A stretch of 64,000 nucleotides of DNA, from NCBI RefSeq assembly GCF_030227115.1, contig NZ_JASSUA010000001.1:1984001-2048000 (forward strand), in the 5' to 3' direction. Source of the DNA: Marinobacter sp. SS13-12. Lineage in GTDB: Bacteria; Pseudomonadota; Gammaproteobacteria; Pseudomonadales; Oleiphilaceae. Under the pieces are notes generated by a model. That model was not told where the DNA came from. It saw only the letters and a program-made list of their open reading frames with translations, and searched no databases. Position numbers and translations under genes: made by a program. Positions 20,732 through 63,581 of this stretch are shown in pieces (the first letter of the stretch is position 1; each line of letters begins with the position of its first letter).

Positions 20732-20839
20732 GGGCAGAGCGGGTATGGCTGTCCAGGGCACGCTGTGAATACGTCCCTGTACGCTTGACAAAAACATCCA
20801 TGTTTTTGACATCCCTGGACAGCCATACCCGCTCTGCCC
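20732..20839 (-). repeat. T-family hairpin repeat T1
   Basis: Perfect 27-bp inverted arms (20732-20758 and 20813-20839) enclose a 54-base core. On the minus strand the core holds a CAAAAACAT/ATGTTTTTG hairpin (20789-20808) and TACAGGGACGTA (20770-20781). It lies between the divergent genes leuS and the zinc-ribbon gene, core-sense toward leuS. No T-run. Confidence 0.85.
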
Positions 20840-20883
20840 CGGACCTTGGCAGTCAGATCAGCAAGGCTATTGCCAATGTTTGG

Positions 20884-20993
20884 TGCCGGGGTGTGGGTGG
20901 CCTTTGCGGGACTGTCTGCAGCAGGGATGCTGCAGTCAAGCTTACATGGACGTATTTACAGCGTGTCCCGCAAAGGCCACCCACAGCCCGGCG
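20884..20993 (+). repeat. T-family hairpin repeat T2
   Basis: Perfect 21-bp arms (20892-20912 and 20965-20985), extended outward imperfectly by CCGGG. The core has CTGCAGCA-GGGA-TGCTGCAG (20916-20935) and TACATGGACGTA (20943-20954). Core-sense toward the zinc-ribbon gene, whose ATG is about 30 bases downstream. Back to back with T1. Confidence 0.85.
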
Positions 20994-21024
20994 CTGCACC
21001 TGTAACCCGGTAAAAGGAGCTGTC

Positions 21025-21573
21025 ATGACCGAACCAGAACGCAATCACCTCTCAGGCAAGGCCCTTGCGGCCTATGACCGCATGCTGGAACGGGTCCAGT
21101 CCCGGCTCAGTGAAATGCAGGAAACCACCCGCGATACCCTGCAAGAGGAGATCGAGCGGGCAGTGGAATTCGAATACGAACTGGAAGACATGACCCGGGA
21201 GGAAGCAGACCTGCTGGGCGCCTACCTGCAACGGGATCTGGAACACCTGCTGCATTTCGTGGAGGAAACCGGCGAAGGCCTGAAGGAATGGTTGCAACTG
21301 GATATCTCGCTGCTGGAACACCAGCTGGCGGACATGCTGTTCTCGGTGGCGGACAAGACCAAACTCGACACCCTTGAACTGTCCCAGAAACTCGAGAAAC
21401 ACGCGCCCAGCCAGTACATCAGCGGCGAAGTGGCAACAGCCGGCATGTTCAAATGCCTCAACTGCGGCCATATGCGCTGCCTGACCGCCACCAGCCACCT
21501 GGAACCCTGCGAGGCCTGCGGCTCCCACTACTACGAACGCGTCACCAGCCGCTGGCCCCGGAAATCGGAGTAG
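21025..21573 (+). CDS. YbeL-like zinc-ribbon protein (DUF1451 family)
   Basis: 182 residues from the ATG at 21025, which has AAAGGAG 7 bases upstream. The open frame runs further upstream but only through the T-family repeats. The first 130 residues are acidic and helical; the C-terminus carries two CxxC pairs (CLNCG and CEACG) of a zinc ribbon. E. coli has its homolog ybeL next to leuS in the same divergent layout, which supports the family. Function is unknown. Confidence 0.85.
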   Translation: MTEPERNHLSGKALAAYDRMLERVQSRLSEMQETTRDTLQEEIERAVEFEYELEDMTREEADLLGAYLQRDLEHLLHFVEETGEGLKEWLQLDISLLEHQLADMLFSVADKTKLDTLELSQKLEKHAPSQYISGEVATAGMFKCLNCGHMRCLTATSHLEPCEACGSHYYERVTSRWPRKSE

Positions 21574-21584
21574 GTGTAGTAAGC

Positions 21585-21691
21585 GTAGGTCGGATTAGAC
21601 GAAGTCGTAATCCGACAAATGGTGTGAGTATCTAGTGGGGTGTCGGATTACGCTTCGCTCATTGTGCCCTTCACGGGTAAATCCGACCTAC
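21585..21691. repeat. P-family palindromic repeats, two units
   Basis: Unit 1 (21585-21617) is GTAGGTCGGATTA through TAATCCGACA; unit 2 (21641-21691) is the inverted form with a CCCTTCACGGG insertion before AATCCGACCTAC. Lies between the convergent zinc-ribbon gene and lnt. Confidence 0.85.
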
Positions 21692-21715
21692 GGCAGCTAG
21701 CGCCAGAGTTAGAAA

Positions 21716-21808
21716 GGCCATGGGGTGGGGGTGCATTTTCTGCCAGAAAAAGGTGTCTGAGCGCAGCGAGTTCTTTTTCCAAAGAAAAGGCACCCCCACC
21801 CCATGGCC
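21716..21808. repeat. S-family hairpin repeat S1
   Basis: Arms of 26 bases pair at all but one position (GGCCATGGGGTGGGGG outermost). The core contains GAAAAAGG, GAGCGCAGCGAGTTC and TTTTTCC, shared with S2 and S3. Sits between convergent genes. Confidence 0.85.
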
Positions 21809-21847
21809 AGGCACCAATCTGGCAGGCTACCCGGACGAGAACCGAGA

Positions 21848-60867: not shown

Positions 60868-61205
60868 CACCGGCTCAGGCAACCGTCGCCCTGGACGATA
60901 ACAGACTCACGGTCAGCGGCCACATCGACCCGCTGACCGTGGTTGCCCTCCGAAAAGAGGGCGACGAGCTGATTCTGGGCAGCAAAGCGGATCTGGTTGT
61001 GGATCTTGCTGCAATGAGCACCGCACACAGTGTGGTACTTTCCCTTCTGCTTTGCTGGCAGCGTCTGGCACGCGGCCGCAGCCAGACCCTTCATTTCACC
61101 GGTGTCAGCGAACGGCTGGCTTCACTGGCAGCCCTGAGCGGCCTTGATGACCAGTTGCCGGGCTTTCCATCCCGACCATCCCCTGAAAACCAGCACCAGA
61201 GCTGA
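60864..61205 (+). CDS. mlaB: STAS-domain protein MlaB
   Basis: 113 residues. Cytosolic STAS subunit that stabilises MlaF. The fold is recognised by NRLTVSGHIDPLTVVAL and VVDLAAMSTAHSVVLSLLLC. The usual DSxGL-type loop is altered here (STAHSV). Its position right after mlaC, with a 4-base overlap, supports the call. Confidence 0.88.
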   Translation: MTPAQATVALDDNRLTVSGHIDPLTVVALRKEGDELILGSKADLVVDLAAMSTAHSVVLSLLLCWQRLARGRSQTLHFTGVSERLASLAALSGLDDQLPGFPSRPSPENQHQS

Positions 61206-61265
61206 CCCGGACACGATAATTGGTTACAATCTCGCCCCTGATTCAAAAACGCCCGAGGATTTTTT

Positions 61266-61508
61266 ATGGAAGCCACCGAAGTTACTGAACTGGTCAAAGA
61301 GGCACTGCCTGATTGCGACGTTCAGGTTCAGGTTGACGGAAATCATTACCTCGTCGTTGTGGTGGGTGACGTTTTTGAAGGCTTGCCGACCATCAAACGG
61401 CAACAACTGATCAACAAGGCGCTGTTCCAGCACATTCTCGATGGCACCATTCACGCCCTGCACCCGAAAGCCTTTACCCCGGCTGAGTGGGCCGCGCGTC
61501 AGGGCTGA
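61266..61508 (+). CDS. ibaG: BolA-family protein IbaG
   Basis: 80 residues. BolA-like partner of monothiol glutaredoxins in iron-sulfur handling and acid response. The fold shows VQVDGNHYLVVVVGDVFEG and the helix-turn TIKRQQLINKAL, with the conserved C-terminal HALHPKAFTPAEW. Located between mlaB and murA, as in enterics. Confidence 0.94.
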   Translation: MEATEVTELVKEALPDCDVQVQVDGNHYLVVVVGDVFEGLPTIKRQQLINKALFQHILDGTIHALHPKAFTPAEWAARQG

Positions 61509-61535
61509 TACGCCCGCAAACAACAGGAACTCATT

Positions 61536-62798
61536 GTGGATAAACTTCTGATCAGGGGCCGTAAGCCTCTCGATGGCGAAATACGGATTTCCGGCGCCAA
61601 AAACGCCGCGCTCCCGATTCTTGCGGCCACCCTGCTGGCAGATGAGCCGGTTACCGTAGGCAACCTGCCGCATCTGAACGACGTGACCACCATGATTGAG
61701 CTGCTTGGTCGCATGGGTGTGGAGCTAATGATCGACGAGAAAATGAGCGTCGAAGTCCACGCCAACACCATCAAGCAGTTTCACGCGCCGTACGAGCTGG
61801 TAAAAACCATGCGCGCCTCAATTCTGGTGCTTGGGCCGCTGGTAGCGCACTTCGGCGAGGCGGAAGTGTCATTGCCCGGTGGCTGTGCCATCGGCAGCCG
61901 TCCCGTTAACCTGCACATCCATGGCCTGGAGATGATGGGTGCCGATATCAAGGTTGAGAACGGCTATATCAAGGCGAAAACCAACGGTCGCCTGAAAGGC
62001 GCGCACATTTTCCTCGATACCGTCACAGTGACCGGTACCGAGAACCTGATGATGGCGGCAGCGCTGGCGGATGGGAAAACCATCCTCGAAAACGCGGCGC
62101 GGGAACCGGAAGTGGTGGATCTCGCTGAATGCCTGATCGCCATGGGCGCTGACATCAAGGGCCACGGCTCTGCGACCATTGAAATCAACGGTGTTGAGCG
62201 GCTGCATGGCTGCCATTACGACGTGCTGCCGGACCGTGTCGAAACCGGCACCTATCTGGTAGCCGCTGCGGCAAGCCGTGGCCGGGTAAAGCTGAAAGAT
62301 ACCCGCGAGGATCTGCTGGAAGCCGTGCTGCTGAAGCTGGAAGAAGCCGGCGCCCATATCGACACGGGCAAGGACTGGATCTCCCTGGATATGAAAGGGA
62401 ATCAGCCCAGGGCAGTCAATCTGCGCACCGCGCCTTATCCGGCGTTCCCCACTGACATGCAGGCCCAGTTCGCGGCCATGAATGCAGTGGCTGAAGGCAC
62501 CGGTACTATTGTTGAAACAGTGTTCGAAAACCGGTTCATGCACCTGCAGGAGCTGATCCGCATGGGCGCGGATATTACCCTTGAAGGCAATGCTGCCATC
62601 ATCAAGGGTGTGGATCACCTGACCGGCGCCCCGGTAATGGCGACGGATCTGCGGGCCTCGGCAAGTCTGGTTATCGCCGGGCTGGTGGCAGACGGCGATA
62701 CCATCGTTGACCGGATTTACCATATCGACCGTGGTTACGAGTGCATCGAAGAGAAACTGCAGCTGCTGGGCGCGAGTATCCGCCGCCTGCCAGCCTGA
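61536..62798 (+). CDS. murA: UDP-N-acetylglucosamine 1-carboxyvinyltransferase MurA
   Basis: 420 residues starting at GTG (61536) preceded by AGGAA. Transfers enolpyruvate to UDP-GlcNAc in the first committed step of peptidoglycan synthesis; target of fosfomycin. In the [14 protein letters not shown] loop the catalytic cysteine is present, so the enzyme should be fosfomycin-sensitive in principle. KNAALPI near the start and RFMHLQEL near the end are conserved. Confidence 0.97.
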
Positions 62799-62820
62799 AC
62801 CCATTGAATCGGAAGGGCGC

Positions 62821-63471
62821 ATGACCGACTCCATCACCATCGCACTGTCGAAGGGACGCATCCTCGACGAGACCCTGCCGCTATTGAAAGAGGCGGGTAT
62901 TGAACTGGTCGACGACGTCAAAAAATCCCGGAAACTGGTGTTTCCCACCACGGATCCCGACGTGCGCGTACTGATTCTCCGCGCAACGGATGTGCCTACC
63001 TATGTGCAGTATGGCGGCGCGGATCTGGGTGTTACGGGCAAGGATGTGCTGATGGAGCATGGTGGCGAGGGGCTTTATGAGCCGCTGGATCTGAATATCT
63101 CCCGGTGTCGGTTGATGACAGCGGGGAAGAAAGACACCAAGGCCCCGGAAGGCCGCCTGCGTGTAGCGACCAAGTTCGTGAACCTGGCGCGTCGTTATTA
63201 CTCCGCCCAGGGGCGGCAGGCCGATATCATCAAGCTCTATGGCGCTATGGAGCTTGCGCCAATCCTCGGCCTTGCCGATGAGATTGTCGATATCGTGGAT
63301 ACCGGCAATACCCTGAAAGCGAATGGTCTTGAAGCTCGCGAGCTGATTGAGAACATTAGCTCGCGCCTTGTGGTCAACCGTGCCTCGATGAAGATGAAAC
63401 ACGCGGGTATTAACCCCATAATTGAGAAGATGTCTGCTGCTGTGGAGAAACGCCGGCAGGTTTCGGAGTAA
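62821..63471 (+). CDS. hisG: ATP phosphoribosyltransferase, short form HisG
   Basis: 216 residues from the ATG at 62821. First enzyme of histidine synthesis, joining ATP and PRPP. The length marks the short HisG form, which needs the regulatory subunit HisZ; hisZ is not in this window. Signature segments [30 protein letters not shown] and [13 protein letters not shown] are present. A 192-base gap with T12 separates it from hisD. Confidence 0.96.
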
Positions 63472-63474
63472 GAA

Positions 63475-63581
63475 CGGCTCAGGAAGGGCTTTCCAAAACA
63501 CGCTCCTTCGGCACATCCATGTGACGCTTGGACTCCGCCATCCATGGCTCCGTACAGTTTTGGAAAGCCCTTCCTGACCCG
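63475..63581 (-). repeat. T-family hairpin repeat T12
   Basis: 25-base arms (63475-63499, 63557-63581) with one mismatch. Minus-strand core nearly identical to T9 (CACATGGATGTG, GCCATGGATGGC). It starts 3 bases after the hisG stop and lies between two same-strand his genes. Confidence 0.87.

Follow-up and report, generated by a model that had tools for sequence, protein, structure and literature searches.

Repeated elements in a 64,000-nt stretch of the Marinobacter sp. SS13-12 genome (the window) raise a question of identity: they share a core of two hairpins, but their outer arms differ from copy to copy, each matching its own partner. What are these T elements, and what keeps their arms complementary? 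All nine elements described in the initial annotation are present, with perfect or near-perfect arms. Its pairing figures were confirmed as well; the single mismatch in T12 arises because the left arm reads CGGCTCAGG where the right arm calls for CGGGTCAGG. We call the strand that carries GGA in the loops the GGA strand; the features are as follows.

T1, 20732..20839, minus strand: predicted GGA-strand RNA element; arms 20732-20758 and 20813-20839, pairing at 27/27 positions; core 20759-20812, with its two hexaloops at 20773-20778 and 20796-20801.
T2, 20885..20992, plus strand: predicted GGA-strand RNA element; lies 45 nt from T1, of which it is the inverted partner.
T4, 25762..25874, minus strand: predicted GGA-strand RNA element between miaB and phoH; position and orientation common to 16/20 relatives.
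T5, 26038..26149, plus strand: predicted GGA-strand RNA element directly past the miaB stop codon; inverted partner of T4; position and orientation common to 15/20 relatives.
T6, 27695..27807, minus strand: predicted GGA-strand RNA element between the divergent miaB and SpoU methylase genes; orientation reversed in relative G049.
T9, 35093..35203, minus strand: predicted GGA-strand RNA element, 3′ of a MiaB-like radical SAM gene (33700-35049).
REP-like pair, 35231..35335, no strand assigned: opposed GTAG-type palindromes between T9 and T10.
T10, 35372..35564, plus strand: long variant and inverted partner of T9, with ~80 nt extra inside hairpin 1.
T11, 38974..39083, plus strand: predicted GGA-strand RNA element 5′ of mreB; in relative G016, the orthologue has one loop changed.
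T12, 63474..63582, minus strand: predicted GGA-strand RNA element.

Each element would encode, on the GGA strand, a structured RNA made up of a closing stem of ~28 bp, a junction and two short hairpins. The reading that best fits the sequence, to which we give a probability of about 0.62, is that the T family is a dispersed CsrA-binding RNA element whose stem matters for its pairing only. The relation of the family to a named one, its copy number, its strand polarity, the conservation of its loops and selection in place are established. The predicted RNA folds of T1, T2, T6, T9, T11 and T12 had z scores of −7.5 to −11.4 on both strands, and none of 200 shuffles reached the native fold. An Rfam search of the window returned zero matches at the gathering score, and several low-score microRNA matches to T elements were dismissed as chance, given the long stem.

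The family extends well beyond the window. We found at least 105 copies in this genome, a lower bound in that scoring covered 150 of 498 candidates. Matches also turned up in 38 of the 222 gammaproteobacterial genera sampled; occurrence was patchy (43/274 genomes). Counts for the genome's own copies use 102 of the 105, three misaligned rows having been dropped. The initial annotation knew no name for the family, and here it needs correcting, since the elements are related to TwoAYGGAY RNA (Rfam RF01731), by model comparison the closest named family. Of 47 matches to the RF01731 model in the genome, 46 were T copies, all on the GGA strand; none reached the gathering threshold of 43 bits (best, 42.6). 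Among twelve loci fetched with RF01731, three distant ones (L271, L274 and L275) lay above that threshold and also matched the T model, with E values of 6.2e-14 or better, and the other nine had no T-model match at the same place. We therefore regard the T family as a relative and not a member of RF01731, below its threshold and linked to it only through intermediates.

TwoAYGGAY RNA was named by Weinberg in 2010 (PMC2864571), has tandem G.A pairs in one stem (PMC4333381) and was proposed in 2014 to bind CsrA. It resembles the T family in its two adjacent hairpins with AYGGAY-type loops, its occurrence in gammaproteobacteria and an external stem poorly conserved in sequence, the last found in T elements too. 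The T loops are ANGGAN, unlike the strict AYGGAY of the named family, and the two-hairpin arrangement is found in T elements (102 own, 70 genus and 48 distant copies) once the loop is widened accordingly. The accounts of it that we consulted mention neither more than 100 copies per genome nor opposed doublets nor REP partners, all of which are features of the T family. Likewise, in the sources accessible to our literature search we found no report of such a copy number, of strand evidence or of an in-place test for TwoAYGGAY RNA, and no test of the 2014 proposal since. For relatives of this RNA, the present analysis adds hosts carrying a hundred copies in one genome, evidence on the folding strand and position-wise rates.

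Both core hairpins end in CANGGANG on the GGA strand, a high-affinity CsrA/RsmE loop, and the ANGGAN hexaloop sits directly on a C-G-closed stem, as in CsrA/RsmA sites. The Csr/Rsm sponge RNAs (CsrB, CsrC, RsmX, RsmY and RsmZ) similarly carry GGA in C-G-closed A(N)GGAX loops, hairpins that capture CsrA (PMC4005645). Each sponge is one gene that holds many sites, whereas T elements are repeats scattered over the genome, each contributing two. Each of the loop letters C, A, G, G, A and G was conserved at 98 to 100% in the 102 own and 70 genus copies and at 96 to 100% in 48 distant copies, figures that are favoured by the picking of loop windows by score and of copies by model, both of which favour the ANGGAN motif. 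At N2 all four letters are used, A being absent only in hairpin 1 of the distant copies; N6 is mainly T or C.

A comparison in place, with orthologues located through their flanking DNA, limits this selection bias toward the motif to the own copy of each pair. It used 24 of 39 element-species pairs, the 15 with a missing or heavily gapped partner being left out. As the 24 derive from 19 own copies, they lack independence; for T9, the partner in G016 could be an adjacent copy; and 2 pairs with swapped cores were counted separately. In the remaining 22 pairs, contacted loop letters had changed at 3/264 positions, looped-out letters at 20/88 (N2, 15/44; N6, 5/44), the remaining core at 39/819 and the flanks at 434/2393. 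Contacted and looped-out letters differed (p 1e-10), and looped-out letters did not differ from flanks (p 0.26), although N6 taken separately was less changed than the flanks. With one pair per own copy the result was similar (contacted 3/204, looped-out 16/68). These differences point to selection in place, with contacted letters constrained and looped-out letters free, as in CsrA/RsmA-binding RNA, N6 at only 5/44 notwithstanding. RsmE structures show recognition of the A, the GGA and the C-G pair, with N and X looped out (PMC4005645), and the position-wise rates in T loops match these contacts. One-sided stem changes numbered 53, of which 16 came from the decayed, indel-shifted T11 copy in G016.

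The arms behave differently. T stems pair across 28 bp, with 2729 of 2940 pairs Watson-Crick, and complementarity drops to chance immediately outside. The copies were aligned in 111 distinct rows, 6 of them copies read a second time on the opposite strand. In this alignment 95.5% of cells were paired, against 62.6% with the 3′ letters dealt anew and 37 to 46% with the partner slid by 1 to 3 columns. Over the outer 18 positions of 102 copies, preselected for at least 23/28 pairs, a copy's own partner paired at a mean of 16.6 positions and another copy's partner at 7.1. All 28 stem pairs had changes on both sides. Three of five covariation measures beat the shuffles in 500/500; the other two did not exceed them (pairs with a double change, 32 versus 29.9; further pair types, 103 versus 105.8). 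The genome-wide test of arm covariation that the initial annotation had called for thus bore it out, pairing lying well above that with re-dealt 3′ letters. Its description of the arms as free in sequence and bound by pairing holds for the greater part, genome-wide and in other genera, but the innermost positions are semi-conserved (CCAAAAC or CCGGGAC types). It had named two findings that would count against it, arms conserved in sequence and chance complementarity outside the window; neither was found, because the arms are held by pairing far more than by sequence. We take the greater constraint by pairing to be supported.

Stem mismatches reveal which strand folds. Read on the GGA strand, they comprised 82 G.U against 10 A.C in the 102 own copies (94 against 20 with the three misaligned copies added), and the G.U excess held whatever the gene context and whichever genome strand carried the copy. 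The figures were 42 and 10 in 68 copies of 17 relatives, a set that includes orthologues (2 of the 70 genus copies having been dropped from strand counts); in 48 distant copies the bias was not significant (21 versus 13, p 0.23). That tolerated mismatches are rich in G.U implies that the GGA strand is the folding strand. Furthermore, hairpin 2 contains G.A mismatches in 56/102 own copies, 45 of them with a GGA/GGA internal loop. Among its twelve commonest patterns, strictly tandem G.A occurred in 9/102, G.A-G.G-A.G (the GGA/GGA loop just counted) in 45 and G.A-G.U-A.G in 2, and most other own copies were paired at this site. Pairs of this kind would be stabilizing on the GGA strand, and their counterparts on the opposite one would clash.

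Arms could also be kept complementary at the level of DNA, if the palindrome folded during replication and a change in one arm were copied to its partner by template switching or hairpin-directed conversion, with no use of the RNA. Three orthologue pairs are what such copying would leave: L170 with G016, and L151:7191 and L151:7364 with G003, have 7 to 10 compensated stem pairs beside cores that are 94 to 100% identical. Single-arm alterations also exist (G048 at T4, G007 at T5). Outer stems differ between copies and share blocks no more than a column-shuffled control, so that other copies are not an evident source of stem changes, and a swapping of arms in blocks between copies was rejected. 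However, arm copying predicts neither a wobble bias tied to one strand nor fixed loop letters beside changing ones. Nor do flank transitions on the GGA strand (103 C<>T versus 141 A<>G) hint at a strand-specific mutation bias toward G.U. We consider arm copying unlikely as the whole explanation. Where the initial annotation had offered selection on structure or a copying mechanism, the former is favoured, because mismatches are mostly G.U on one strand and loop letters are held in place; the three compensated orthologues leave room for some contribution from copying.

Under the CsrA-binding reading, a transcript containing the GGA strand would fold at the T element and capture CsrA, the long stem holding the two loops away from surrounding RNA. 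The paired loops would suit homodimeric CsrA/RsmA: each element would offer two high-affinity sites, and the genome as a whole about 200 or more. Stem letters would count mainly through pairing and would therefore drift. Together, the many scattered copies could form a distributed CsrA sink, couple the fate of neighbouring transcripts to CsrA, or both. CsrA as the ligand, transcription of the GGA strand and an effect on the cell are inferred. CsrA was present in 51/55 element-bearing genomes and 23/25 others, which says little because CsrA is near-universal in the class; in one genome with a T element (G269, 98% complete) no CsrA was found. The number of csrA genes does not predict T copy number, being one in 22/24 genomes (three in G007, two in G023), with a single gene, as in most, in five Marinobacter genomes with merely 3 to 12 T matches.

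A broader proposal is that the CsrA/RsmA network of some gammaproteobacteria includes a scattered, repeat-borne layer of gene-adjacent decoys, at least 100 of them, which offer CsrA ~200 high-affinity sites in each genome. These decoys would have spread alongside REPs in opposed doublets, selection would since have held them in place, and each would titrate CsrA to the extent that its surroundings are transcribed. We hold this tentatively and think it rather doubtful. If true, a global post-transcriptional regulator would have incorporated, or be exploited by, a repetitive element. On the CsrA-binding reading itself, global regulation by CsrA in these bacteria would span hundreds of dispersed sites absent from present annotation.

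Alternatively, the T family could be a selfish repeat mobilized by an enzyme acting on the folded single strand, as RAYT is thought to do for REP; the GGA-strand fold would then be the substrate, with no host use and CsrA uninvolved. We think this quite improbable. High copy number, patchy occurrence and small conserved flanks suit it, as do the uniform opposed orientation of T doublets (11/11) and the one-sidedness of adjoining GTAG-type repeats (15 on one side versus 1 on the other). Y1 transposase genes, however, were unrelated in number to T copies, which led us to reject RAYT as the driver: none were found in G001, G005 and G018, with 61 to 85 T matches, and 22 were found in G004, with 8. 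Copies also hold the same place across relatives, and the comparison of orthologous junctions, which the initial annotation had proposed, showed loop letters held in place and no clean recent insertion at the junctions inspected; where a copy was absent, the site either resembled a deletion, in some cases with remains of an arm, or was a short intergenic region lacking any sign of the element. A MITE or insertion sequence relic was rejected, as the outer stems are not terminal inverted repeats common to the copies. The dispersed unit also includes short, weak conserved motifs beyond each of the two arms, making the arms internal to it and ruling out their copying from an insertion target.

REPINs, like T elements, are dispersed intergenic palindromes, often in opposed doublets. 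The same is true of GTAG-type REP elements (PMC3733652), some of which adjoin T copies. T elements differ from REPs in their far longer, variable stems; assignment to the GTAG type was rejected, the GTAG tag beside a short stem and the association with RAYT or Y1 transposase numbers being absent.

Gene context was assessed with our own codon-score gene caller, not annotation, for 102 of 105 copies, three at stretch edges being omitted. Copies were intergenic in 101/102, and the nearest gene end was a 3′ end for 62/102. The four of nine placed between divergent genes by the initial annotation (T1, T2, T6 and T11) are so placed, but genome-wide the figure is 14/102. Its view that T-runs are lacking holds for the GGA strand (0/102 with at least 4 T in a row within 12 nt past the arm) and not entirely for the other (9/102); an intrinsic terminator was rejected on these counts, in agreement with its doubts about terminator function. 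A general 3′-end hairpin with a stabilizing or terminating role, comparable to BIMEs or bidirectional terminators and with incidental loops, would fit the intergenic, 3′-proximal setting but is highly improbable, as the U-tract is lacking on the GGA strand and rare on the other, conservation within the element is highest at the contacted loop letters, and a plain stabilizer requires neither two ANGGAN loops nor strand polarity.

Right-hand neighbours (64 versus 38) hinted at an orientation suited to 3′UTR use, a bias lost within 30 nt of gene 3′ ends (GGA strand sense in 20, other strand sense in 21). T copies are thus not clearly oriented with respect to adjacent genes, and their GGA strand frequently runs antisense to these genes. 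Small hairpins in the flanks were as frequent as in control stretches. A TATAAT-like hexamer (at least 4 matches) lay 5′ of the GGA strand in 34/102 copies, against 21/102 and 19/102 in two controls, an excess judged too weak to mark a clear promoter on that side. The 3′ half of the model of Ysr224 (RF02770), a Yersinia sRNA, aligns with some T cores, far under its 70-bit cut-off (32.1 bits at most) and on the strand opposite the GGA strand.

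A blind inverted-repeat search of the window recovered all nine T elements, which could also be read directly. Eight of these, taken in the same orientation, align with a near-common core and changing arms, and 27 of the 36 pairs in their consensus show one or more compensated changes; T10 was omitted on account of roughly 80 nt inserted into one of its hairpins. R1, a covariance model built from this alignment, found 9 of 9 T elements in the window and then further copies genome-wide and in other genera. T10 (window positions 35372-35564) and a copy upstream of miaB in G007 (L135) have a similar hairpin-rich insertion of roughly 80 nt inside hairpin 1 and, found in two different species, are a long variant of the element.

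R1 listed 119 matches in the Marinobacter sp. SS13-12 genome (G000), a genus placement in keeping with the 94% identity of MiaB to that of a named relative (L039). Eleven of the matches were opposite-strand readings, two were fragments and one was weaker; without them at least 105 T places remained, T10 included, all fetched and re-scored; this count is a lower bound, 150 of 498 candidates having been scored. Among 24 genus relatives, with at most 101 candidates scored in each and opposite-strand readings still included, we counted 61 to 101 matches in 17 genomes, 34 in G006 and only 3 to 12 each in G004, G010, G011, G015, G019 and G024. A class-wide search (E of 1e-7 or better, stricter filters, 14 candidates scored per genome) gave an R1 match in 43 of 274 genomes, belonging to 38 of 222 genera; these counts include G000 and its genus.

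The initial annotation had proposed that the arms differ between copies yet stay complementary, and this holds genome-wide. Watson-Crick pairs make up 2729 of the 2940 stem pairs in the 105 own-genome copies, so that complementarity beyond chance is not confined to the window, and among 102 copies an average of 16.6 of 18 outer stem positions pair with the arm's own partner, versus 7.1 of 18 with the partner from another copy. Outside the arms, complementarity was only 0.15 to 0.35 at each of 25 positions (105 copies). Observed stem pairing was 95.5%, compared with 62.6% when the 3' letters were dealt out anew and only 37 to 46% when partners were slid; the covariation score was 0.83, compared with 0.20 and at most 0.17, respectively. 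Two count measures (pairs with a double change and further pair types) showed no excess over shuffles. The outer stem is nearly free in sequence, and the innermost positions are semi-conserved. Among distant copies, 787 of 812 stem pairs were Watson-Crick in the best listed copy from each of 29 genomes, a choice that favors perfect arms, and no common arm sequence was evident among these 29. The arms in one distant genome, G259, have common patches beside variable blocks.

On the GGA strand, which is opposite to the strand aligned, stem mismatches were predominantly G.U rather than A.C (82 versus 10 in 102 copies; 94 versus 20 over all 105). This bias did not vary with gene context (tandem, convergent or divergent) or genome strand and is thus the element's own, not that of its neighbors. 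The corresponding counts were 42 and 10 in 68 copies from 17 genus relatives, the orthologues among them not being independent, and 21 and 13 in 48 distant copies, which was not significant; one-sided changes between orthologues gave 20 and 7 (p 0.02). On the GGA strand, 56 of 102 own copies have G.A mismatches in hairpin 2, in 45 of them as a GGA/GGA internal loop, and these become pyrimidine mismatches on the other strand.

Both hairpins terminate on the GGA strand in C-ANGGAN-G. The six fixed loop letters are 98 to 100% conserved in 102 own and 70 genus copies and 96 to 100% conserved in 48 distant copies; the second letter (N2) may be any of the four, and the sixth (N6) is mostly a pyrimidine. 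High-affinity CsrA/RsmE targets are described as ANGGAX hexaloops sitting directly on a C-G-closed stem, with N and X looped out (PMC4005645). We favor the reading, at a probability of about 0.62, that the T element is a CsrA/RsmA-binding RNA whose stem is kept for pairing only; the GGA strand would be transcribed, CsrA would be its reader and titration the effect. The weakest point of this reading is the route of transcription, since T orientation ignores neighboring genes and a scan of the GGA-strand 5' side found no clear promoter. The presence of CsrA itself is uninformative, being nearly as common without the element (23 of 25 genomes) as with it (51 of 55); a search of G269, an element-bearing genome 98% complete, found none.

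Twenty-two own copies had both flanks located in G003 and/or G016 stretches, giving 39 element-species pairs, of which 24, from 19 own copies, had an alignable element (22 with unswapped and 2 with swapped cores). In the unswapped pairs, differences were seen at 3 of 264 contacted loop sites and 20 of 88 looped-out sites (15 of 44 for N2, 5 of 44 for N6), compared with 39 of 819 other core sites and 434 of 2393 flank sites. Taken together, the looped-out letters changed similarly to the flanks (p 0.26), and the contacted letters were held (p 1e-17 versus flanks); one pair per own copy gave 3 of 204 versus 16 of 68. For the two swapped-core pairs, whose letters are not comparable one to one, the corresponding counts for contacted and looped-out letters were 9 of 24 and 7 of 8. 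Selection here operates on copies already in place, and its pattern is that expected of a CsrA-type reader. Orthologous stems differed at 12 to 25% of outer positions, 13 to 14% in segment 16-21 and 2 to 5% of innermost positions, and the flanks differed at 15 to 18% beyond 12 nt and 23 to 31% in the 12 nt adjoining the arm. Double changes that preserved Watson-Crick pairing were seen in 69 stem pairs and one-sided changes in 53, 16 of the latter through an alignment shift within one decayed copy. Concerted arm change is clearest between L170 (G000:C1:2182025) and its orthologue from G016 (in L250), which have an identical core, a nearly identical inner stem, an outer stem rewritten on both sides and flanking DNA 97 to 99% identical.

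The T family is a relative of the TwoAYGGAY RNA (RF01731), short of formal membership. TwoAYGGAY is listed with human gut, gammaproteobacterial and Clostridiales hosts by Weinberg 2010 (PMC2864571); Gardner and Eldai propose CsrA binding and describe an external stem of low conservation as well as tandem G.A (PMC4333381). The RF01731 model played no part in finding the T elements, and T copies account for 46 of its 47 own-genome matches (E up to 10), all 46 on the GGA strand; none passed the cut-off, the best reaching 42.6 of 43 bits. The match at G000:C1:947316-947439 (36.4 bits), absent among the listed R1 matches, is likely one more copy. One of 14 control genomes gave a match, under the cut-off; the cut-off was passed in 11 of 229 class genomes, several of them many-copy, and in 0 of the 14 controls. 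Three of 12 loci fetched with RF01731 (L271, L274 and L275) match R1 over the same bases (E of 6.2e-14 or better), and the other nine have no R1 match there. The model for Ysr224, a Yersinia sRNA (RF02770), matched T2, L161 and L202 below its cut-off; it seems to contain the complement of a T core, so that what is annotated as Ysr224 may in part be the opposite strand of the repeat.

T copies are intergenic in 101 of 102 cases of known gene context. Comparison of orthologous junctions with and without the element, suggested by the initial annotation, showed retention at T4 and T5 in most relatives. The T5 site, directly after the miaB stop, is occupied in 15 of 20 relatives and the T4 site in 16 of 20, with orientation kept; G049 has an inverted core at T6, where several relatives (e.g., G005 and G065) have cores of other types. 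G004, G010 and G015 had no T copies in the region, and their short intergenic regions beside miaB had no trace. Some other absences look like deletions with arm remnants left (G016 at T4 and G023 at T6).

All 11 pairs of T neighbors less than 600 bp apart are opposed in one sense (p 2e-7). Such doublets include window 20732/20885, 25762/26038 and 35093/35372, and some surround GTAG-type REP-like palindromes. Of 102 copies, 15 have a GTAG-type repeat no more than 70 nt away on the GGA-strand 5' side versus 1 on the other side, and weak motifs adjoin both arms on the outside. These features suggest that the T unit may have spread as a doublet in a REPIN-like manner, but Y1 transposase gene numbers do not follow T copy numbers in the Marinobacter genomes examined. 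G004 has 22 Y1 transposase matches and 8 T matches; each of the other 24 has 0 to 3 Y1 matches. A second long-hairpin family, with a common interior of about GTGTCYGAGCGCAGCGAGTTCTTTTTCC and partly different outer arms, lies at window 21716-21808, 28676-28769 and 30020-30113. Roughly 1 kb separates a 6S RNA gene (L008, 2578-2757) from a T copy.
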